Positions 47,987-59,391 of a DNA stretch of 64,000 nucleotides are shown piece by piece. The position numbers were made by a program, and so were the translations under genes. Each line of letters begins with the position of its first letter. The stretch's first letter is position 1. Source of the stretch: Microbacterium sp. NC79 (GTDB lineage Bacteria > Actinomycetota > Actinomycetes > Actinomycetales > Microbacteriaceae); NCBI RefSeq assembly GCF_019061125.1, contig NZ_JAHQYI010000001.1:1364001-1428000 (forward strand), written 5' to 3'. Under the pieces are notes generated by a model that saw only the letters and a program-made list of their open reading frames with translations, had not been told where the DNA came from and ran no database searches.

Positions 47987-48050
47987 TCGCCCGCGCGCCG
48001 CAGGCACCGGTTCCGGAACCAGAACAGCGGAACCAGCAGGCGGTAGATAC

Positions 48051-48086
48051 ACGAATGGCCACCCCACGAGGTGGCCATTCGTTTGC
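48051..48086. terminator. Bidirectional terminator between the thioesterase and response-regulator genes
   Basis: A 13-bp stem (48051-48063 with 48070-48082) with a 6-nt loop and TTTG tail. Confidence 0.8.
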
Positions 48087-48096
48087 GTACGGGGTA

Positions 48097-48717
48097 CTAG
48101 TCCTTCTTCGGGGACAGCTGGTCGATGATGGCCTTGGCGACATCTTGCATCGTCAGGCGGCGATCCATCGAGGCCTTCTGAATCCAGCGGAATGCCTCGG
48201 GCTCGCTGAGCCCCATCTTTTCGTTGAGCAGGCCCTTGGCGCGGTCAACGAGCTTGCGGGTCTCGAAACGCTCGACCATGTCGGCGACCTCGGCCTCAAG
48301 GGTAATGATCTGCTCGTAGCGGGCGAGGGCAATTTCGATTGCGGGCAACAGGTCGTTCGGCGTGAAGGGCTTGACAACGTATGCCAGGGCGCCGGCCTCG
48401 CTGGCGCGCTCGACGAGCTCCTTCTGGCTGAACGCGGTCAGCAGAACGACGGGTGCAATGTGGTTCTTGCTCAGCTTCTCGGCTGCGGTGATGCCATCCA
48501 TCTGCGGCATTTTGACATCCATGATCACCAGATCAGGGCGCAACTCGGTCGCGAGCTGAACGGCCGTCTCACCGTCGCCTGCCTCACCGACAACGTCGAA
48601 ACCGTTGTCTCGGAGAATCTCGACAATGTCGAGGCGAATAAGCGACTCGTCTTCGGCGACGACCACGCGACGGGGTGCGGGCGCTGAGGTGGCTTCGGTT
48701 TGTTCCTGATCGGTCAC
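48097..48717 (-). CDS. pdtaR: ANTAR-domain response regulator (PdtaR-like)
   Basis: This 206-aa protein has an N-terminal receiver domain (VVVAEDESLIRLDIVEIL, phosphoacceptor in LVIMDVKMPQMDG, Lys in YVVKPFTPNDL) and a C-terminal ANTAR RNA-binding domain (ETRKLVDRAKGLLNEKMGLSEPEAFRWIQKASMDRRLTMQDVAKAII). It matches Rv1626/PdtaR, which is phosphorylated by PdtaS and acts as a transcription antiterminator. The kinase gene is not adjacent. Leaderless promoter TAGGAT (48724-48729). Confidence 0.94.
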   Translation of the reverse strand: MTDQEQTEATSAPAPRRVVVAEDESLIRLDIVEILRDNGFDVVGEAGDGETAVQLATELRPDLVIMDVKMPQMDGITAAEKLSKNHIAPVVLLTAFSQKELVERASEAGALAYVVKPFTPNDLLPAIEIALARYEQIITLEAEVADMVERFETRKLVDRAKGLLNEKMGLSEPEAFRWIQKASMDRRLTMQDVAKAIIDQLSPKKD

Positions 48718-48723
48718 TGCTCA

Positions 48724-48729
48724 ATCCTA
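48724..48729 (-). promoter_or_regulatory. -10 element, leaderless promoter of pdtaR
   Basis: TAGGAT on the minus strand, TGAGCA spacer (6 nt), GTG at 48717. Confidence 0.55.
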
Positions 48730-48786
48730 TGGCACAGGCCTGGTTCAAATGGTGTTTCCCACACAGCAAACGTGGATTAACCCCAC

Positions 48787-49044
48787 CTAATGCCGACGTA
48801 ACCGTGCGATGAGCTCCTGCTTTCGCAATCTCGAGTAGCCAGCAAGCCCCAGCTCCTTCGCTCGTTTCTTCAGCTCTGGTACGGTCCACTCTTCATATGG
48901 TTCCGCTTCTCCCCCGCGTTTTCCCACCGCCGCGCGTCCATCGCGGGCGCTCGCGTTCGCGATGCGGGCAGCCTTCTCTTTCGATGCGCCCTCGCGGCGG
49001 AGCGCCTCGTACACGTCTTCATCCTTGATTTGGGGGTTCGGCAT
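48787..49044 (-). CDS. Small basic protein with Rho-N/SAP-like C-terminus
   Basis: The 85-aa protein has a helical N-terminus (IKDEDVYEALRREGASKEKAARIANASARDG), a short Gly/Arg linker (VGKRGGEAEPYEEW), and a helix-extended-helix unit TVPELKKRAKELGLAGYSRLRKQELIARLRRH typical of Rho N-terminal or SAP-type nucleic-acid binding motifs. It resembles a family recalled as DUF7218. ATG 49044 has AAGGGA; the TTG at 49059 is a less likely start. It follows a 66-aa gene by 11 nt, so both are probably one operon. Confidence 0.8.
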   Translation of the reverse strand: MPNPQIKDEDVYEALRREGASKEKAARIANASARDGRAAVGKRGGEAEPYEEWTVPELKKRAKELGLAGYSRLRKQELIARLRRH

Positions 49045-49055
49045 CGTGTTCCCTT

Positions 49056-49256
49056 TCAATCGACCGGTTCGCGCTGGGTTTCGATGAACTGGCGGTCATC
49101 ATCGCTGAGCGTCTCACCATCCCGCACGACGTAACCGGTGAGGGTTCGAATCTCCTCCACCACGGTCGCAGGCAAGACGTCATTTGGTGCCTCCCAGATG
49201 GCGTGCTTGGCCTCGATGCTCAGCTGCGGCCACCAGGTGTGAATGTCTGGCAACAT
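49056..49256 (-). CDS. Small acidic hypothetical protein, 66 aa
   Basis: The protein starts MLPDIHTWWPQLSIEAKHAI and is acidic, Trp-containing and probably helical. I do not recognise a family. The ATG at 49256 has GGGAGA in place; GC-rich third positions and tight linkage to the SAP-like gene support coding. The first gene of a two-gene minus-strand unit. Confidence 0.65.
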   Translation of the reverse strand: MLPDIHTWWPQLSIEAKHAIWEAPNDVLPATVVEEIRTLTGYVVRDGETLSDDDRQFIETQREPVD

Positions 49257-49444
49257 CGTTCTCCCTTCCACACCACCAGCGTGTCAATCAGGCGGAACAA
49301 TGGGCACCCCCTTGACAACCACCGCAGGGTCTGGGGACTACCTACCCAGCACAGACCCGTCGCTCGTGTCAACCCGTTAGACCGAACGCGCGGCGTCGGG
49401 TCATAGTACAGCGACATCATTGTGCTCGAGAAGGGTTCACACAA

Positions 49445-50524
49445 ATGGCGCGATCTTTTGGGATCGAGGAAGAGTTCATGTTCGCGGACGCTGAGTCGTT
49501 GACTCCCGTGAACGTCGCGCACGATGCCATCGAGGACTTACGATCGCGCAATTTGCCCGGTACGGTCACCGCCGAGTTTCTGGACTGCCAAATTGAGTTT
49601 GCCTCGGGTGTGTGCCACGGCGCCGCACAGGCGCTCGATGAGCTCACCGCATTTCGCACCGCCGCTCAGGCGTGGGCGGAACATCGAGGTCTCACTGTGG
49701 TTCCGTCCGGCACGCCTTTCGTAGCCGGGCGCTCCCGCATCGAACCTACGAGCGCTCGATACCATCTCATCGCGCAAAATGTCGGACGATTGGCGGGCGA
49801 ACATCTTCTCAACGGCATGCACGTGCACGTGGGCATCGATGATCCCGCCGACCGCGTGCGAGCTCTCGGCGTCGTCCGGCCGTGGCTCCCCGCACTCCTG
49901 GCGATATCCGCAAACTCCCCGTTTTGGAAGGGTGCAGACACTAGCTTTCATAGTTGGCGATCGATCCAGGCCCGCAGATGGACAACGAACGGCATCCCTC
50001 CTGCCTACGAAGACCAGGCCGATCATGATCGGCTGCGTGAAAGGTTGATCGGTGTGGGTGCCACGCAGCACTACAGCACCGCAAGCTGGAGCGTGCGCGT
50101 TTCGGAAAACCTTCCCACGATCGAGTTGCGCATCAGCGACGCGCAACTCACCGCCGCCCGCGCGGTGTCGATCGCACTCGTCATCCGCGGGCTCGTTGAT
50201 GTCGGCCTCCGCACCCTTCCTGAGGGGTCACCTGAACGTCACCATATCCTCGACGCAGAGCTGTGGCACGCCGCTAGACACGGCATGAGTGAGGGGCTGT
50301 ATAATCCCATGACCCGCACGCATACCCCGAGCAGTGACGTGCTTTCTCACCTCGTAGCGATGCTGCATGACAGCGAAGAGGCAACGCCCGCATTCGTCGA
50401 CACGGAACTCGACACGATGGCTGCCGGAAGCGATGGCGCGACCATTCAACGCGCAGCGCTCGCCCGTAGTCTCGGACACCTTACCGCCCTCTACTGCGGT
50501 TCCATGCGTGGGGACGAGGATTAG
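49445..50524 (+). CDS. YbdK-type carboxylate-amine ligase (glutamate-cysteine ligase 2 family)
   Basis: The 359-aa GCS2-family ligase has an N-terminal FGIEEEFMFAD (metal/ATP-binding glutamates), EFLDCQIEFASGV near residue 40, LNGMHVHVGIDDPADRVRAL near 122 and the C-terminal ENLPTIELRISDAQL. Members have weak gamma-glutamylcysteine synthetase activity; true substrates are unclear. The end overlaps the convergent downstream gene by 4 nt. The 173 nt upstream hold its promoter region; no other gene is seen there. Confidence 0.88.
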   Translation: MARSFGIEEEFMFADAESLTPVNVAHDAIEDLRSRNLPGTVTAEFLDCQIEFASGVCHGAAQALDELTAFRTAAQAWAEHRGLTVVPSGTPFVAGRSRIEPTSARYHLIAQNVGRLAGEHLLNGMHVHVGIDDPADRVRALGVVRPWLPALLAISANSPFWKGADTSFHSWRSIQARRWTTNGIPPAYEDQADHDRLRERLIGVGATQHYSTASWSVRVSENLPTIELRISDAQLTAARAVSIALVIRGLVDVGLRTLPEGSPERHHILDAELWHAARHGMSEGLYNPMTRTHTPSSDVLSHLVAMLHDSEEATPAFVDTELDTMAAGSDGATIQRAALARSLGHLTALYCGSMRGDED

Positions 50525-50844
50525 TCTTTGCCGTTGTCCACGGCCTCGAAGTGCTCAGCAACCAGCATGATGCCGCCGGTGGAATGTGCAGAGCGCGCCA
50601 GCTCATCAAGCCAGGCCGGGCTGAGTTCTGCGGGTTCGGGTGAATCGAAAATGAACCGTAACGGAATAGCGGGATGCAGCCAAATGGTGCTGCGACCGCC
50701 GTCAGTATCCTCCGGGTGAATCCAAGAAACGGTGAAGCTCTCACCGCGGCGCAATTTCGTCGTGATGACGACCTTCAAATGCGCGAGTGCGCGATCTTCA
50801 ATCTCGATGGGGCTATCGGGGTGACCATAGTACAAAGCGCCCAT
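50521..50844 (-). CDS. Small beta-rich protein, DUF7882-like, copy 2
   Basis: The 107-aa protein belongs to the same family as the next gene upstream. Shared features are IEIEDRALAHLKVVITTKLRRGESFTVSW, then GGRSTIWLHPAIPLRF, LSPAWLDELARSAHSTGG. Such Microbacteriaceae proteins are recalled as DUF7882 and are sometimes mislabelled ATP-dependent DNA ligase; no ligase motif is present. The ATG overlaps the preceding stop (TGATG), so the pair is co-translated. Function unknown. Confidence 0.8.
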   Translation of the reverse strand: MGALYYGHPDSPIEIEDRALAHLKVVITTKLRRGESFTVSWIHPEDTDGGRSTIWLHPAIPLRFIFDSPEPAELSPAWLDELARSAHSTGGIMLVAEHFEAVDNGKD

Positions 50845-51155
50845 CACACAACCGAGCCTTCTGCTGGTTCCGGAACCATATGTAGGCCGTGCGCGGAGTG
50901 CGCCGTTTCGGAGAGTGCATCGAGCCAAGCGGGGTTGAGCTGCGGCCGGCGGCTACCATAAAACTTGAACACCAGTGAGGCAGAGCTGTTGATCCAGACG
51001 CTCGTGCGGCCGTCCCCGACGCTCGCGTCATCGCGCCAGCTGAAAAAGAAGGGCTCATTGCGACGCAACTTCGCTCCGATGACAACCTGAAGGTGTGCCA
51101 GCGCGCGATCTTCGACATCAATCTTGACATTAGTGTCGTAGATGAATTTTCCCAA
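50844..51155 (-). CDS. Small beta-rich protein, DUF7882-like, copy 1
   Basis: The 103-aa protein starts MGKFIYDTNVKIDVEDRALAHL and shares LRRNEPFFFSW, GDGRTSVWINSSASLVFKF, LNPAWLDALSETAHSAHGL with its neighbour at 50521-50844. The two are tandem duplicates that have diverged to roughly half identity by eye. No catalytic motif or signal peptide. Unknown function. Confidence 0.8.
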   Translation of the reverse strand: MGKFIYDTNVKIDVEDRALAHLQVVIGAKLRRNEPFFFSWRDDASVGDGRTSVWINSSASLVFKFYGSRRPQLNPAWLDALSETAHSAHGLHMVPEPAEGSVV

Positions 51156-51329
51156 CGTGCTCCTTAGCGACGCGCCAATCGTGCGAGTCCACCAAATGGT
51201 AACCCAGGTACAGCCAACCAGCCCCGCGTGGAGATAGCAAGCCTTAGCCTTCCGCTGTCAACTATGCAACCCCCTGTTCCTGGACGGACAGGGGCGTAAT
51301 CTAGCGGCGAAGCGATGGAAAGGTAGATC

Positions 51330-51497
51330 ATGGTCCCCGACCCTAACCTCGAGCCCGAGCCCGTAACACCGACCACCGACGGTGCCGCAGCCAGCCAACC
51401 ACGCATGTGGCGAGAGGTATCACTGGACTCCGGAGAAATATCAGTCGTGCCCCCGAATCCCGTTGGCATTGACGAGCCGAAGGACGTTTCTGACTAA
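51330..51497 (+). CDS. Small acidic proline-rich protein, 55 aa
   Basis: The frame starts MVPDPNLEPEPVTPTTDG and ends GIDEPKDVSD, Pro/Asp/Glu-rich and probably disordered apart from a short WREVSLDSGEISVV strand-like segment. Support: GGAAAGG ribosome site 7-13 nt before the ATG, a TAATCT -10-like box at 51297-51302, and balanced codons. Not recognised. The overlapping minus-strand frame at 51164-51469 is judged a shadow. Confidence 0.5.
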   Translation: MVPDPNLEPEPVTPTTDGAAASQPRMWREVSLDSGEISVVPPNPVGIDEPKDVSD

Positions 51498-51586
51498 AGA
51501 GACCCCTGCTCCACGACGCGCCCGGCCGCTCCTCACGTCGCGCTGAGGCTCAAAACTGCGATAGTGTCGAGTTGTTTCACGCACTT

Positions 51587-51672
51587 GCCGGTGTGGCGGA
51601 ATGGCAGACGCGGAGCACTCAAAATGCTTTGTCCGAAAGGGCGTGTGGGTTCGAATCCCACCACCGGCACCA
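51587..51672 (+). tRNA. tRNA-Leu (anticodon CAA)
   Basis: Class II tRNA with acceptor stem GCCGGTG/CACCGGC, anticodon stem GAGCA/TGCTT around loop CTCAAAA giving anticodon CAA, a long variable arm, T-arm GTGGGTTCGAATCCCAC and an encoded 3' CCA (51670-51672). It reads UUG codons. Its 3' end is the left border of the accessory island. Confidence 0.95.
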
Positions 51673-51684
51673 TTCAAACGAATC

Positions 51685-51724
51685 GAAACCCCCTCAAACG
51701 GACATTTTGAGGGGGTTTCACTTC
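51685..51724 (+). terminator. Terminator of tRNA-Leu(CAA)
   Basis: A perfect 14-bp stem (51685-51698 with 51706-51719), 7-nt loop, T-rich right arm. Confidence 0.88.
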
Positions 51725-51948
51725 GTTTCAGGGCGGCCCGCGTGGGGATGAACCGGGGATGAAGCCACTTTCGGCTCGATTGGAGGCCGAAGCGCGGCGC
51801 TATGCCACGCAAAAACACCAAAGAAGCGGTGCCGAAAGTACGTTGAGATACCTTGGCGCGGCGACCTCGACAAAGTTTCGGCTCGAGGCATGCCAGTTGA
51901 ATGGGAGATTGATCTCTCCGCTCACACTGCGGATGAGGGAAAGCAGGA
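51725..51948 (+). other. Left island flank with short repeats, possible integrase remnant
   Basis: No intact gene. GGGGATGAA occurs twice in tandem (51744-51763). TTTCGGCTCGA is a direct repeat at 51769-51779 and 51876-51886. A 14-codon frame at 51801-51845 (MPRKNTKEAVPKVR) resembles the basic N-terminus of phage-type tyrosine integrases but stops at once. These may be arm-site or integrase relics. Confidence 0.35.
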
Positions 51949-53208
51949 TCAAGCCTTGCTCGTCTTGCCGAGAGTCTCGATGGCCATCAGTAGCAGCTTT
52001 ACGAGTTCGGCATTCGAGGCAGATTCGCTAACGTTCTCTGCCTTTTGGTCTGCCCCCCAGGCACGACCGAATGCCATCTTCACGAATGCGAGCTTCGCTT
52101 CGTCAGAACCAGCAACATCCTGAAGGAATGGCGTCAGGGCGCGAAGTTCAAGCTCTTGCCTCTTGAACGAAGTTGCCCGAGCGAGCGCCTGTCCACCAAA
52201 TCGGAAAGCCACCGCGGCTATACCGCCGACCGCCGCAGTCAGCCCCAGCTTCAACACAACCTGGGGCCATTCGAGTGCGCCACGCGCATCTCCAAATGCG
52301 AATAGGGCGACCCAAACTCCAGCCGCACCCGCGAGTATCCCGGTGAGGTAACCGACGTATCCGGAGATGCGATCCCAGCGAGCGGACCTCTTGTATTGGT
52401 CGCCAAGTATGTCTCCTGAAGCAAGGTTAGACATATCCACGACGCTCGTGCGGAGCTGCGTTACTTTCTCAAGCGCCCTCACAGCAGTCTCATCCGCCTC
52501 AATAATGGCATCTAGATGCGGTTTCGCGAGGTCAGTGAAAGACTCTTCCTGCTGTTCGAGCCACTTTAGGAAGCGTTCTTGGCGGTCGGCCTGAGCTTTA
52601 AGGAAGGCGTCACTCGTCTCTGTCAAGGAAGTGGCTAGCCGCGTTTCATCGTCGCTGATCCGCTTCGCGAGCTTCTCAGCTTCCGCTTTGGCAGTTTCAA
52701 GCTGCGCGGAAAGCTCAGCCCCGCGGCGGACATGCTCAGCGACTTCGTTCAAGTGGTCAGCTCGGAGTTCCGACAGTTGCTCGATGAGCAGGCGACGAGC
52801 GGCATCAACCTGTTCGGTGTAAGCTCCAGCGGCGCGTGTCGCAGCACCCTTCTTAGCGCCCGCTTCATCGGGCTTGGGGAACTGTATTAATGCCGCCCGT
52901 ACGGCATCGGCCGTCGCAGTCTTCACGGTTTCAAGGTGCGATAAGTAGCTCGCGGGTGCCTGGACGTATTGCGCCACGCCTTGATGGAGCTGACTCCATG
53001 CGTTGTTCAGCGCATCCATTGAGGATGGGCTCAGAAGTGCGAGCTGATCTATCTCCCGTTGAGCCTCGGACACAGCGAGCAGTTGACGAACCTCATGCAA
53101 TCCAGCAGACACTTCAGCATCGCCAAGGGCATCAAGCGCTGTGATTTGCTCCGCGGCGCCCTTCATGGTGCGCCATAAGGCATGATTCTCGAACGCGCTC
53201 TTCTCCAT
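51949..53208 (-). CDS. Coiled-coil membrane protein of unknown function (island)
   Basis: The 419-aa protein is not recognised. Residues 1-275 are helical and charged with long heptad-like stretches (EQVDAARRLLIEQLSELRADHLNEV and following, AETAKAEAEKLAKRISDDETRL). Two hydrophobic helices follow, near 286-308 (YVGYLTGILAGAAGVWVALFAF) and 323-345 (VVLKLGLTAAVGGIAAVAFRFGG), then a soluble tail (LELRALTPFLQDV...LAFVKMAFGRAWG). No signal peptide. The architecture fits a membrane-anchored sensor or effector; a defence role is only inference from the tRNA-linked location. Codon use is less GC-biased than in flanking genes. Confidence 0.78.
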   Translation of the reverse strand: MEKSAFENHALWRTMKGAAEQITALDALGDAEVSAGLHEVRQLLAVSEAQREIDQLALLSPSSMDALNNAWSQLHQGVAQYVQAPASYLSHLETVKTATADAVRAALIQFPKPDEAGAKKGAATRAAGAYTEQVDAARRLLIEQLSELRADHLNEVAEHVRRGAELSAQLETAKAEAEKLAKRISDDETRLATSLTETSDAFLKAQADRQERFLKWLEQQEESFTDLAKPHLDAIIEADETAVRALEKVTQLRTSVVDMSNLASGDILGDQYKRSARWDRISGYVGYLTGILAGAAGVWVALFAFGDARGALEWPQVVLKLGLTAAVGGIAAVAFRFGGQALARATSFKRQELELRALTPFLQDVAGSDEAKLAFVKMAFGRAWGADQKAENVSESASNAELVKLLLMAIETLGKTSKA

Positions 53209-54215
53209 GGTGACCCCTCTCTTCCCTCAGGCTACTGGTAGCTCGGCGTTGTCCTTCGCAGCCAACACGCCGAAATTCGTTGCGCCGAATCCGATGTGGT
53301 CGCCGCAGACAACGTGCGCAGAGTATGCGGAACGGCACCAGTGACGGCGCGGTGCCTACGCGTGTTCTCGAGTCGTCTTTGCCCGGTGGCGAGAGCGTTA
53401 TCCGCCGTGAATTACTTTCGAAGACCTCGTGATCGCGGAGCTCGACTTTCGCAGTTCATGTTGGCTAACACCGACATGGGGTTGGAAGTAGGGACGGGTC
53501 GAGCATCTCCTTGATGGTGGCCCCTGGAAGATCCCCAAGTGCCATCGCACTGTCACGCTCTGAGCGCTCAGTGTGGCGGCGTGAAGTTGGCAAGCGCCGA
53601 TGCCGCATCGTAGCGACTGTCTACTTGCGCGAAGTCCCGCTTCTCTCCAATTGGCGTTGCGGGACTCGTTACTCCGGCTCGCCTACTCCACTTAGAAACT
53701 TGCCAAACACTTCACCCGAGCCCACCATGCTCGGAAGGGCCCGCCAAGCAATTATCGACCGCCTCGTCAACATTGGAAGCCCACTCTGAAATGCACTCAT
53801 CGCAACTAGCGCTGGTCGTGATTTCATGAGCGTCGGCATTGCGCATCGCGCGCCATTTGTTGGGTTGCACGGTCTTCGAATCTAATGGCGAGGCGTTTCT
53901 CGATGGCAGACGGCGTGCAAATGAGCAACCGGCGATTGAGTACCTCATCAGCAGTCTCCCGCTTCGGGAGCATTGTGGTGGTGGGGCCGATTAAACCTGG
54001 AACAGCGGAGTGCGGGGTAGTGCACGCGTAAGCGAGCATCATTCCGAGCGCCAGCCTGGCACCGGGTCGCGCGCGGACTAAACATGACCACCATTGGTGA
54101 AGACATGCCCCCGCTGGACCTGGATCAGAAAACTTCGCGCTTCTTCGAATAGGGTTTGCCTCAGCCTAGGTAGATTCGGCCTAAGAGTCCTGCGGCTCAA
54201 GATGGGAGCAAAGGT
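53209..54215. other. 1-kb intergenic stretch in the island, no intact gene
   Basis: Several short frames on both strands are all under 95 codons with poor composition. A minus-strand frame (53824-54042, with ETADEVLNRRLLICTPSAIEKR) and another near 53,490-53,600 (ERSERDSAMALGDLPGATIKE) look protein-like and may be decayed gene ends. Promoters for the two divergent island genes should also lie here. Confidence 0.5.
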
Positions 54216-56021
54216 ATGGCATCGTTCAAATCTCGCGAATTGACCGCCGCAATTGTGTTGCCGACGCTGATGTCACCGCTCGGAGAACACGATTCAGAGC
54301 CGGTGGCGATTAGGGCGACGCGACATAAATTGGGTTCCGTCGCCATTGTGCGAGGAGGCCGAAGCATCGGTCGATTCCTTACCGCGTCAAATGCGCTGCT
54401 CATGGATATCGAAGAGGGGCGCCGCTCAGCTGTTGCGGCTCTTCAACTCGCCGGATTTTCGCCCCTCTCCCCGGTCACGCAGGAGGCAACGGTGGGCGAG
54501 CCAATCCTGCGACTGCTCCTTGAAACTGGCGCGGGCGGTTCACCTGTTATCTACCTTAGATCCAAGGGTGTTTCCTCAGTGGGAGATGTGACTTTTGGCG
54601 CCTATGATCCGTCCACCCAATCTCTCGTGATGGCAGCCGAGAAATTTGAACCGCACATGGTGCGACTACTTGATCTGTGTGGTCTCAGCGTGAGCGTCGC
54701 CACGGTGAGACCACATCCGTCGATAAGCGCGAAAACACGGCGCTTCGTCACTTGGGATGACGCTAGGTGGATACAAGATACTGTCAACGAGGAGTCTCGA
54801 ATAGCGGCGCGGGGCAACTCCGTCGTGCGACGAGCGATGCTTCCCCAGCTTGCCGACAGATTTCCAAAGAGCATCGTGAATGCAGTCAACGAGACGCTCG
54901 ATTTTCCTACTGACAGTTGGAGGCGAATACGTAAAAAGGCCGACCAAACTTCGCTTTATACGTTCCCGAGCATTGACGAGCTACGGGTTGTTGGCCGAGA
55001 ACTACAGGGAATTAGCCTCCCGAATGGCTGGCATGAAGTTTGGGCGGGTTCGCTCAAAATTTCTCCCTACTTCGCGGGCCGAATCGCGGCGTTGGATCTG
55101 CGGGACAGCTTTAACGAATGGTGGCAGACGATCCCACCCACCCACGTCGGAAGCCCCACACGAGATAGATTCTCGATACCAGAAAGCATGTACAACCCGT
55201 CGCGACATGGTGCGAGGACTACCTCTGAGATAGCCGATTGGTTTGAAGCGGAGAACGGTCGTGTCGTAACCGTAGCTGCGTTACTCGCTGCCACGGTAGG
55301 GAGTGAAATTCCCGACACTGTCGGTTTTGAGCCGTGTTCGTGTCCGCTCTGCGGCACCAAATACAGCCCCGCGGAATTAAGCATTAAGTCTGTCCGCGAG
55401 CACATGACCGAAGCTTGTCCGCGTTGCTTGTCGCCCGTGCGGCAGTACGAGGATACGACTCCCACACAACGGGCAGGCGCCCTGTCCGCAATCCAACACC
55501 TAGTAAGAACTGCGCGCCGAATTGTGCAGCCAAATATGTTCAGAACGCTGGTGGTGGAGGGGGATATCGACCCCATCGAGCTTCTGGTGCTGAAACATGC
55601 TCTCCCAGACAAAAGATCCCAGTCCTGGTCGGGGTGGTTGGCGGAAGCTGGAGTGCTCGGAAAAGGTTGGCGTCCCTCTTATGGATTCATCACAAAAGCC
55701 TTGGACGGCCACGATTGCCGCTCGCTGTTCGAGCGAATAGTCGACGACTTCTTTTCGAGTAAGGCCTTGCATCACATTGTTGAACCGGCATATCCATATG
55801 ACTCGGAGCTGAACCAGCATGGAATGAGGGCCGACTGGCTCGTGGACGGGAGAGTTTTCGTGGAAGCAGCCGGGTTGACCGATATGGCGGACTATGCACA
55901 AAAGATAGAGCGCAAGAAAATACTCGCCGACCGCCACAATCTTGAACTCGTGATCCTTACTCCTGACGATTTGACGGGCTTGGCGGCAATCTTTCAAGAA
56001 CGTCCGTCCACTGTTCATTAG
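54216..56021 (+). CDS. Unrecognised protein with zinc ribbon and PD-(D/E)XK-like C-terminus (island)
   Basis: The 601-aa protein matches no family I know. The first about 365 residues are uncharacterised mixed alpha/beta. A zinc ribbon follows: C374, C376-x2-C379 and C401-x2-C404. The C-terminus looks like a restriction-endonuclease fold: a leading helix with E506, then HIVEP, D540 in RADWLVDG, E550 in VFVEAAG, and a helix with Y560, K563, K567, K568, ending ELVILTPDDL. The canonical Lys two after Glu is Ala, so the helix lysines may substitute. I infer a DNA- or RNA-cleaving enzyme, perhaps anti-phage. ATG with AAAGG nearby; codon use is less GC-rich than the flanks. Confidence 0.75.
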   Translation: MASFKSRELTAAIVLPTLMSPLGEHDSEPVAIRATRHKLGSVAIVRGGRSIGRFLTASNALLMDIEEGRRSAVAALQLAGFSPLSPVTQEATVGEPILRLLLETGAGGSPVIYLRSKGVSSVGDVTFGAYDPSTQSLVMAAEKFEPHMVRLLDLCGLSVSVATVRPHPSISAKTRRFVTWDDARWIQDTVNEESRIAARGNSVVRRAMLPQLADRFPKSIVNAVNETLDFPTDSWRRIRKKADQTSLYTFPSIDELRVVGRELQGISLPNGWHEVWAGSLKISPYFAGRIAALDLRDSFNEWWQTIPPTHVGSPTRDRFSIPESMYNPSRHGARTTSEIADWFEAENGRVVTVAALLAATVGSEIPDTVGFEPCSCPLCGTKYSPAELSIKSVREHMTEACPRCLSPVRQYEDTTPTQRAGALSAIQHLVRTARRIVQPNMFRTLVVEGDIDPIELLVLKHALPDKRSQSWSGWLAEAGVLGKGWRPSYGFITKALDGHDCRSLFERIVDDFFSSKALHHIVEPAYPYDSELNQHGMRADWLVDGRVFVEAAGLTDMADYAQKIERKKILADRHNLELVILTPDDLTGLAAIFQERPSTVH

Positions 56022-56100
56022 CGAGATCCGCCTCAGCGCGCCGTAGTCAAGCGCAGTTCGTTCCTACCCCGCGTCCGATGTTGCGTACATAACCGATCTT

Positions 56101-56136
56101 GAAGGAGGCGCACCCACAGGTGCGCCTCCTTCTGCT
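56101..56136 (+). terminator. Hairpin at the right edge of the island
   Basis: A perfect 14-bp stem (56101-56114 with 56119-56132), CACA loop; weak T tail (TGCTT). Confidence 0.7.
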
Positions 56137-56387
56137 TGGTAGCAACTCATGCCTGCCCAGCCCCTCCTGGTTCCACTCCCCTGGATCCGCTCTTCCCTGC
56201 TGCACTCCTGGTTCTGCTCCCCCTGCTTCCGTGCCCGTTATGCAGGAACCAACGGGTGACACGCCGGCGAAAACCCGCGACACGCCGTCGTTACTGTCGT
56301 GCGTTCCTCCATAACGGACAGAGCGGAACCACGACGCACGCCAGTGAGGCACGCGGCAGACACAAAACAGCACGCCGCAGACACGCC
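56137..56387. other. C-rich spacer without a gene
   Basis: Imperfect CTGGTTC-x-(C)TCC repeats lie at 56167-56222, followed by GACACGCCG-type repeats. No frame here is convincing. Confidence 0.5.
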
Positions 56388-56421
56388 CGGGCCGATGACA
56401 CCCGAAGGTGCCACCGGCCCG
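56388..56421 (-). terminator. Terminator of pyk
   Basis: A 15-bp stem with two G-U pairs (56388-56402 with 56407-56421), tetraloop TTCG on the minus strand, 10 nt past the pyk stop. Confidence 0.75.
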
Positions 56422-56430
56422 TAAACGGAA

Positions 56431-57879
56431 CTACTTGACCTCTTGGTAGATGGGCGCAGCGCCGTGAATGGCGTCTCCCACCTTGTGAACGCGAAGGTCG
56501 TTCGTTGAACCAATGATTCCGGGAGGGGAACCAGAGATTACGACGACCTTGTCGCCCACTTCAGCGAGGTTGTTCTTCAACAGATAGTTGTCGACCTGCA
56601 CGTACATCAGGTCGGTGTGCTTGACCGTGTCGACGAGCGTTCCGCGCACGCCCCACGTCAAGGCGAGCCGGCGGCGGATGCCCTCAAGCGGCGTGAACGC
56701 GAGCATCGGGATCTTTGAGCGCAGACGCGACATGCGCCGGGCCGAGTCACCAGACTGGGTGAAAACGCACAGGTACTTTGCGCCCACGAAGTCAGCAACC
56801 TCAGCCGCTGCCAGCGTGATTGCGCCGCCCTGCGTGCGGGGCTTTGCCGTCATGGGTGCGATGCGCTCCAGGCCGTGGTCTTCCGTTGACGCGATGATGC
56901 GCGCCATCGTTTCCACAACGACCGTCGGGTATTCGCCGACGCTCGTTTCGCCAGAGAGCATCACGGCGTCGGCGCCATCAAGCACCGCATTCGCGACGTC
57001 GCTGGTTTCAGCACGCGTCGGAACCGGGCTCGAAATCATCGACTCCAGCATCTGCGTGGCAACGATCACCGGCTTCGCCATGCGGCGGGCAAGCTCAACG
57101 GCGTGCTTCTGAACGATCGGCACAGCCTCGAGCGGCAGCTCAACACCAAGGTCACCACGGGCAACCATGATGCCGTCGAAGGCGTCGACGATCTCTTCCA
57201 GAGCGTCAACAGCCTGCGGCTTCTCGATCTTTGCGATCGTGGGAAGGAACTTACCCTCCTCGCGCATGATCTCGTGAACACGCTCAATGTCACGAGCGTC
57301 GCGCACGAAGCTCAGCGCAATGAGATCTGCGCCAATACGCAGACCCCAACGGAGGTCTTCCTCGTCCTTTTCGCTCAGGGCAGGAACATTCACGGCAACG
57401 CCGGGAAGGTTAATGCCCTTGTTGTTGGACACCGCGCCCGCGACGATGACCTTCGTGACGACATCGACGCCGTCAGTCGAGACAACCTCAACGCGAACCT
57501 TGCCGTCATCAATCAGGAGGAAATCTCCCGGCTTGACGTCTCGGGGCAGGCCCTTGAACGTGGTTCCGACTCGCTCCTTGGTGCCAAGGATGTCGTCAGT
57601 TGTAATGGTGAAGAGGTCGCCCTCGGCAAGCTCGTGTGGTCCGTCGGCAAACTTGCCGAGTCGAATCTTTGGTCCTTGCAGGTCCACCAGGACGGCAACG
57701 GCTTTACCGATGTCGTCCGCCGCGCGGCGCACGTTGGCAAAGTTTGCCTCGTGCACCGAATAGTCGCCGTGGCTGAGGTTCAGCCGTGCGACGTCAACGC
57801 CCGCTTCAAGAAGCGAACGTACGGTTTCATATGTGGATGTTGCAGGACCCAGGGTGGCGACGATTTTTGCGCGTCTCAT
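56431..57879 (-). CDS. pyk: Pyruvate kinase
   Basis: The 482-aa glycolytic enzyme converts phosphoenolpyruvate and ADP to pyruvate and ATP. It has MRRAKIVATLGPATS at the N-terminus, ARLNLSHG (near residue 36), LLDLQGPKIR-like VDLQGPKIRLG, the active-site TIAKIEKPQAV (Lys), DGIMVARGDLGVELP and TQMLESM. The C-terminal regulatory domain is complete. ATG start; ribosome site GGAGCAC. Confidence 0.97.
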   Translation of the reverse strand: MRRAKIVATLGPATSTYETVRSLLEAGVDVARLNLSHGDYSVHEANFANVRRAADDIGKAVAVLVDLQGPKIRLGKFADGPHELAEGDLFTITTDDILGTKERVGTTFKGLPRDVKPGDFLLIDDGKVRVEVVSTDGVDVVTKVIVAGAVSNNKGINLPGVAVNVPALSEKDEEDLRWGLRIGADLIALSFVRDARDIERVHEIMREEGKFLPTIAKIEKPQAVDALEEIVDAFDGIMVARGDLGVELPLEAVPIVQKHAVELARRMAKPVIVATQMLESMISSPVPTRAETSDVANAVLDGADAVMLSGETSVGEYPTVVVETMARIIASTEDHGLERIAPMTAKPRTQGGAITLAAAEVADFVGAKYLCVFTQSGDSARRMSRLRSKIPMLAFTPLEGIRRRLALTWGVRGTLVDTVKHTDLMYVQVDNYLLKNNLAEVGDKVVVISGSPPGIIGSTNDLRVHKVGDAIHGAAPIYQEVK

Positions 57880-57932
57880 CCGTATGTGCTCCGGTTGTTA
57901 GGGTTCTGTGGCCATCAGGGGCCGTGTCCAGC

Positions 57933-59391
57933 CTACTGATGCGGTAGTCCGATAGCGACATCACTCGCCCGGACCGGCGCAGGAAGTGACGTCGTACCCA
58001 TCAGATACGCGTCAGCATGCGCCGCTGCCGCACGTCCTTCTGCGATTGCCCACACGATGAGCGACTGGCCTCGGCCAGCGTCACCAGCGACAAAAACGCC
58101 AGGAAGAGAGGTGCGGAAGTCGTCTTCGCGAGCCAGGTTGCCCCGCGATGTGAAGGGTGCCTTGATCTGCGGTTCAATCGTGTCCCGCTCCGGGCCGGTG
58201 AAGCCCATCGCGATGAGCACCAGGTCAGCGGGAATCTCGCGCTCGGTGCCCGACTTCGGCACCCGCTTGCCGTCGATGAACTCGGTTTCTGCGACGCGCA
58301 GCGCGCGGACCTCCCCCGCATCGTTCGCCAAGAATTCAACGGTGGACGCCAAGTAGACCCGCTCCCCACCCTCTTCGTGTGCGGATTGCACCTCGAAGAT
58401 CGTTGGCATCATCGGCCACGGCTGGTGCTCGGGTCGCTCGTCCCCCGGCTGACGACCGATCGCGAGGTTCGTCACGCTGAGCGCTCCCTGCCGGTGCGCC
58501 GTGCCGATACAGTCGGCTCCGGTGTCACCGCCACCGATAACGACGACGTGCTTACCCGCTGCGGTGATCTGGTTCGTGACGGTGTCGCCCGCCAAAACCT
58601 TGTTCGACTCGACGAGGTACTCCATCGCGAAATGCACACCGGGCAGGTCGCGGCCGGGGATTGCCAGGTCTCGCGGAACCGTCGCACCGGTTGCGACGAT
58701 CACGGCGTCATACCGGTCGCGCAACTGGGCCCACGTGATGTCTTTACCAATCTCCACGCCAGCGCGGAAGCGCGTTCCCTCATCCTGCATCTGACGGATG
58801 CGGTCTTCAATGTGCGACTTTTCCATCTTGAAGTCCGGGATGCCGTAGCGGAGCAAGCCACCGATGCGGTTATCCCGTTCGAACACAGCGACGGTGTGAC
58901 CAGCGCGGGTCAGTTGCTGTGCGGCGGCAAGGCCTGCGGGACCGGAACCAACGACGGCGACGGTCTTGCCTGTGATGCGTCCTGGAGGCTGCGCCTGCAC
59001 CCATCCGTTTGCGAACGCCTCATCGATCGTCGAGACCTCGATCTGCTTGATCGTGACGGCTGGCTGGTTGATACCGAGAACGCATGAGCTCTCGCAGGGA
59101 GCCGGGCACAAGCGTCCGGTGAACTCCGGGAAGTTGTTCGTGGCGTGCAGACGCTCGATGGCCTGACGCCCCTCGCCACGCCAGGTCAGGTCGTTCCACT
59201 CCGGAATCAGGTTGCCGAGCGGGCAGCCCTGGTGGCAAAAAGGCACACCACAGTCCATGCAACGACCGGCTTGGCGCCGCAGCACCGCCTTGTCGCCGGG
59301 CTCGTACACCTCTTTCCAGTCCATGATGCGCACGGGTACCGGGCGACGCTTGGGGAGCTCTCGCTCCGTGACTTTCAGGAAGCCCTTGGGA

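Follow-up and report, generated by a model that had tools for sequence, protein, structure and literature searches.

In the window analysed here, a 64,000-nucleotide stretch of the Microbacterium sp. NC79 genome (contig NZ_JAHQYI010000001.1, positions 1,364,001 to 1,428,000 of the forward strand), an open reading frame (ORF) of 601 amino acids (aa) encodes a protein in which a restriction-endonuclease-like core follows a zinc-ribbon-like segment. The nuclease fold is very probable, as judged from two structure models, a fold comparison and a family alignment. The alignment and the models also suggest that the catalytic lysine has probably moved from the third strand of the core to the next helix, as K567. 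We favour, tentatively, a role of the protein as a stand-alone, laterally acquired DNA endonuclease serving as a one-gene defence. Positions are those of the window unless the locus of a relative is named.

Nuclease core and putative active site

54216..56021, + strand: gene of the zinc-ribbon and restriction-endonuclease-like protein (ORF with an ATG start, 601 aa)
55725..55991, + strand: restriction-endonuclease-like nuclease core, residues 504-592 (two AlphaFold models, fold comparison)
55731..55733, + strand: codon of E506, first helix of the core (26/26 rows)
55833..55835, + strand: codon of D540, just ahead of the second strand, residues 541-543 (26/26 rows)
55863..55865, + strand: codon of E550, third strand, residues 547-551 (26/26 rows)
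55914..55916, + strand: codon of K567, proposed relocated catalytic lysine, helix 558-573 after the third strand (26/26 rows)

The ORF lies where the original prediction had placed it, and the ten residues singled out there (C376, C379, C401, C404, E506, D540, E550, K563, K567, and K568) are at the positions given; their conservation in the family argues against a chance arrangement. The family alignment comprises 26 rows, the window protein and 25 relatives. Not among the rows are the other two Streptomyces entries, H3 and H4/L006 (the latter with the same protein accession), Methylotuvimicrobium H15, and a group of distant loci (L021-L024, L025, L026, and L090-L092). Hoyosella was counted once (P0003), and rows L002, P0012, and P0013 are closely related to each other.

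In the models, the core extends over residues 504-581 and has the alpha-beta-beta-beta-alpha-beta layout of the PD-(D/E)XK superfamily in the broad sense. The acidic residues expected at the second and third strands are D540 and E550. The restriction-endonuclease fold proposed from the sequence thus agrees with both models and with the fold comparison. The nearest solved folds, which are tied, are the catalytic domain of the EDxHD homing endonuclease I-Bth0305I (PDB 3r3p, 14% identity) and TnsA (PDB 1t0f and 1f1z). The likeness to I-Bth0305I is one of overall fold, and it is not specific to EDxHD enzymes because of the tie with TnsA. TnsA keeps its catalytic lysine on the third strand, unlike the window family. 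Vsr endonuclease (PDB 1cw0) is also among the closest known systems. T7 endonuclease I was rejected as a relative by sequence profile (E 0.7, not significant).

The strict PD-(D/E)XK pattern, with a lysine two residues after the third-strand acid, is not found. As originally noted, the lysine of the E-x-K motif is replaced by alanine (A552), and none of the rows has a lysine at this position (Ala in 16, Leu in 4, Phe in 3, Trp in 2, and Val in 1). Among the counted positions, those identical in all rows are W471, L475, G490, D497-G-H499, C501, S503, E506, D511, H520, E523-P524, P527, R538, D540, E550, G553, Y560, and K567. Of the ten lysines that the window protein has within the region compared, K567 alone is invariant; the K563 position is occupied by Lys (16 rows) or Arg (10 rows), and the K568 position is variable. 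The invariance of K567 offers an explanation for the missing E-x-K lysine, and the alignment indicates that alanine at this position is a family trait rather than a sign of decay. Relocated catalytic lysines occur in the PD-(D/E)XK superfamily. The invariant residues D497-G-H499 and H520 are candidates for further active-site residues. PMC4081073 describes restriction enzymes in which the E-x-K lysine is replaced by E, Q, or N.

The invariance of K567, in a family in which the E-x-K position is other than lysine in 26/26 rows, leads us to consider it very improbable that the protein is a catalytically dead or decaying relic retaining only DNA binding, a possibility raised by the missing canonical lysine, by a stretch of about 1 kb in the same interval (53.2-54.2 kb) that lacks any plausible gene, and by apparently broken copies elsewhere, and countered by the intact reading frame of the window copy and by the invariance of E506, D540, and E550.

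Zinc ribbon, N-terminal region and relatives

55341..55427, + strand: zinc-ribbon-like segment, C376-x2-C379 ... C401-x2-C404 (sequence and alignment)
55626..55658, + strand: W471-x3-L475 ... A478-G-V-L481, similar to the tail of PF18780 (homing-endonuclease-associated repeat)
54348..55139, + strand: N-terminal region, residues 45-308, common to a few full-length relatives (profile match)

The four cysteines of the ribbon are present in 23, 23, 24, and 23 of the 26 rows, respectively, and nine of the eleven exceptions are gaps. PF18780 is matched above the cut-off by the relative L022 (E 2e-12) and below it by L099 (E 0.0027). The window protein has no PF18780 match in Pfam at E 1 and, at the same threshold, no match to any Pfam or NCBIfam family.

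The first 365 residues had been said to match nothing known. This no longer holds, since residues 45-308 match a profile built from three full-length relatives (E 2e-10, against 0.34 for the best of 500 shuffles). The same profile reaches the larger relatives G1113 (E 1e-4) and G965 (E 1e-3). The reverse profile from the larger relatives, which included one faulty cut (G831), failed to match the window protein (E 2), a result that is weak either way. The fold of this region was not predicted, pLDDT (the model confidence score) being mostly below 50. The larger relatives have a further N-terminal module (A9); a HIRAN-like reading of this module was dropped for want of a Pfam match at E 0.05 and of a sensible PDB match. 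These profile results indicate that proteins of 364 to about 880 aa, lengths that depend on the starts as called, share the ribbon and the nuclease and differ in front.

A PADLOC scan of the window protein gave one match, to the candidate model PDC-S69 (PDLC05067): positions 182-277 of the 289 in the model, its nuclease end, align with residues 494-593 (E 6e-7). All eight family members compared match PDC-S69 at E 0.1 or better, and our literature search found no paper naming it. A second model, HEAT_CxxC_PDDEXK (PDLC01150), the name of which describes a CxxC plus PD-(D/E)XK layout, is matched by two of eight members (best E 8e-6) and not by the window protein. The best PHROGs match of the latter was only E 0.28.

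Relatives are rare. A first search of 5.8 billion proteins, with 7,995 candidates scored, returned the window protein itself and one relative. An alignment-based search returned ten proteins, two of them already known, and a search with the full-length alignment returned two. By tblastn, six plasmid records were found to carry relatives, from Cellulosimicrobium (one record; 653 aa, full length), Streptomyces (three; 364 aa), Hoyosella (one; 551 aa), and Nocardioides (one; 822 aa). Two of the three Streptomyces records were inspected and carry the same protein. The six records represent four plasmid kinds, 4/6 being mobilizable and 1/6 conjugative. In genome samples that overlap and include the source genome, the gene was found in 1/198 related genomes, 2/295 of the genus, 3/297 of the order and, by profile search, 11/394 of the class and 9/396 of the phylum. 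The second genome of the genus, G1190, has a relative with 30% identity over residues 6-595. The PDC-S69 model itself matches 3/118 genomes of the class. A short local match in L007 (E 3e-5 relative to candidates only) was not counted as family.

Some copies appear broken (L099 9515-10624, L100 9591-10300, and L088), with a frame change after the conserved lysine, split matches, and one in-frame stop. Distant relatives from four genomes are encoded 284-588 bp 3' of a transfer-messenger RNA (tmRNA) gene, which was matched over the full Rfam model. The gene ahead of the tmRNA is presumably smpB at these loci, where both vertical inheritance and homing are possible.

L021 6747-8447: distant relative 3' of tmRNA
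L022 7343-8757: distant relative 3' of tmRNA
L023 7420-8834: distant relative 3' of tmRNA
L024 7911-9217: distant relative 3' of tmRNA

The locus between tRNA-Leu(CAA) and pyk

51587..51672, + strand: tRNA-Leu(CAA), one border of the interval (also found by Rfam)
51949..53208, - strand: gene of a 419-aa protein with a coiled coil and a membrane segment by eye, same interval
56431..57879, - strand: ORF that we take to be pyk (pyruvate kinase), other border of the interval
48103-48717: conserved regulator flanking the tRNA (window copy), presumably pdtaR

The nuclease gene is very probably a laterally acquired accessory gene. It is present as a single copy in the source genome, the assembly of which has three contigs; the contig that carries it is at least 1.4 Mb long. 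The interval was described as compositionally distinct, and this is borne out: the gene has a GC content of 0.557 (0.59 at third codon positions, GC3), compared with 0.607-0.642 (GC3 0.72-0.76) for pyk, gltD, and gltB. It was also said to sit next to a tRNA. The upstream tRNA-Leu(CAA) is indeed there, but 2.5 kb away with one other gene between, so that 'next to' is loose.

The low-GC gap between the tRNA and pyk is about 4.76 kb in the window. Of 21 same-genus genomes with both genes on one contig (a 22nd has them on different contigs), 11 have a gap of about 66-115 bp, three have one of 227-480 bp, and seven have one of 1.4-17.3 kb. On the other side of the tRNA, the regulator lies 26-122 bp away in the 12 relatives inspected (12/12) and about 2.9 kb away in the window. 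The tRNA-Leu(CAA) spot is therefore variable on both sides. The gap of genome G002 holds a 17-kb stretch (L068) with what appear to be genes for a phosphoketolase, a universal stress protein, and a sensor kinase. The strand of the tRNA relative to pyk is the same in some same-genus genomes and opposite in others (G014 versus G015), as if the tRNA gene had flipped.

The 419-aa gene is on the opposite strand, so that nothing points to an operon shared with the nuclease gene. Its product was found in this genome only, among 38 searched; its other matches are weak (PADLOC JetC and ZorA, E 0.007) or distant (two Geobacillus/Parageobacillus plasmid matches). About 1 kb (53209-54215) holds no plausible gene and is perhaps a decayed one. 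Two small adjoining ORFs of one family at 50521-51155 (- strand) share an IEDRALAHL motif and a 75-bp DNA repeat that is 71% alike. An integrative element with tRNA attachment repeats was considered and rejected: the last 15-23 nucleotides of the tRNA have no second exact copy in the window, and no matching direct repeat was found at 50400-57900.

A possible defence role and its alternatives

For the defence role that we tentatively favour, the proposed mechanism is as follows. D540 and E550, together with E506, would hold a divalent metal, and K567, in the helix that follows the third strand, would stand in for the usual E-x-K lysine. DNA binding and the choice of the target may fall to the zinc ribbon together with the divergent N-terminal region, and the protein would then cut incoming plasmid or phage DNA, so that a single gene would protect the host. 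The original prediction would have been undermined by a structure without the endonuclease fold, or by homologues lacking D540 and E550 or found only in core loci. None of these was observed, because the fold is predicted, both residues are kept, and the inspected loci are on plasmids or differ between genomes.

Some neighbours of the relatives are suggestive of defence. Beside the Streptomyces copy are genes for a methyltransferase resembling type I enzymes, for a protein of the endonuclease VII type (REase_II, E 4e-9), and for PycTM; a further neighbour, of the Crp/Fnr type, has weak Pycsar matches. RmrA adjoins the Nocardioides copy, a partial Aga helical-REase match lies alongside the G398 copy, and Avs3a lies about 1 kb from the G1058 copy, the nuclease gene of which looks broken. 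Single-gene defence is still a tentative reading: the gene seems to stand alone, and defence genes adjoin some of its homologues, but a controlled survey did not add to this. The survey set 13 loci, that of the window among them, against 13 control stretches from the same genomes or plasmids; the loci gave 113 called genes lying within 5 kb, and the controls gave 100 (genes called by a simple GC3 script; G1023, which had no control stretch, and G1190 left out). At E 1e-10, the neighbours matched 40 families and the controls 49, matches not being attributed to members and one protein being able to match many. Among the 25 listed of the 40 are Avs3a/b, RmrA, PDC-M01A, PtuA, MTase_I, PycTM, ATPase-type families, and mad3; among the 25 listed of the 49 are strong matches to DpdE, ZorD, DrmD, HamB (helicase-type), WYL, and mad3, as well as PDC-M23B.

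Several observations weigh against a defence role. The survey gave no clear defence enrichment over the controls. In the scan of two sets of ten selected neighbour genes, those near six other copies were all without a match (three in Cellulosimicrobium, two each in Hoyosella and G831, and one each in G343, G965, and G1023). The PDC-S69 match covers about a third of the model, leaving out the zinc ribbon and the N-terminal region, and the model also matches 2/14 named control genomes. Judged by eye, the contents of the tRNA-pyk intervals of relatives look metabolic or are unclear. A search for sigma-70-like sites at 53200-56500 found none (0 versus 1.0 expected). Finally, I-Bth0305I ranks top among the solved folds.

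The latter observation bears on the main rival to defence, a free-standing selfish homing-type endonuclease that would cut the gene-less allele, for example near tRNA-pyk, and spread by repair copying with no host benefit. This explanation is also in line with the PF18780 matches of some relatives, with phage homing endonucleases among the viral-model matches, and with the position of the gene 3' of a tRNA and of distant relatives 3' of tmRNA. We nevertheless regard it as unlikely. Rfam detected only the tRNA, and no intron RNA family, at 48000-58000; homing genes that stand free of introns and inteins do exist. None of 50,697 phage records matched the window protein or the compact relative P0004, and a low-sensitivity scan of viral contigs gave two pattern matches, neither of them a relative. 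The G1190 relative has no tRNA in the surrounding 19.5 kb, other relatives occupy unrelated sites, and the interval in the window also contains another gene.

A nuclease borne by plasmids or other elements, with a part in recombination, transfer, or competition between plasmids instead of defence against phages, is improbable. The tie with TnsA, the mostly mobilizable plasmids that carry relatives, and the insertion-sequence transposases that some copies have at a distance of up to about 5 kb (an annotated IS701 in L003; others recognized by eye in L097 and L100) would fit this role. Against it, no Tn7-type partner gene was seen beside the window gene, no recurring partner was seen by eye among the loci inspected, and the window copy is on a large contig.

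A broader proposal, which we consider doubtful, is that the proteins form a new family of defence nucleases that sense DNA and need one gene only, here mainly from Actinobacteria, with a common zinc ribbon, a relocated-lysine core, and interchangeable N-terminal readers that choose the foreign DNA to be cut. The analysis outlines a nuclease family that is not named in Pfam and that standard scans touch only through a candidate model. It defines a putative active site, E506, D540, E550, and K567, for nucleases that would be taken for dead in a search based on the E-x-K motif. Should its role be defensive, the family would provide a compact one-gene system with swappable recognition ends.
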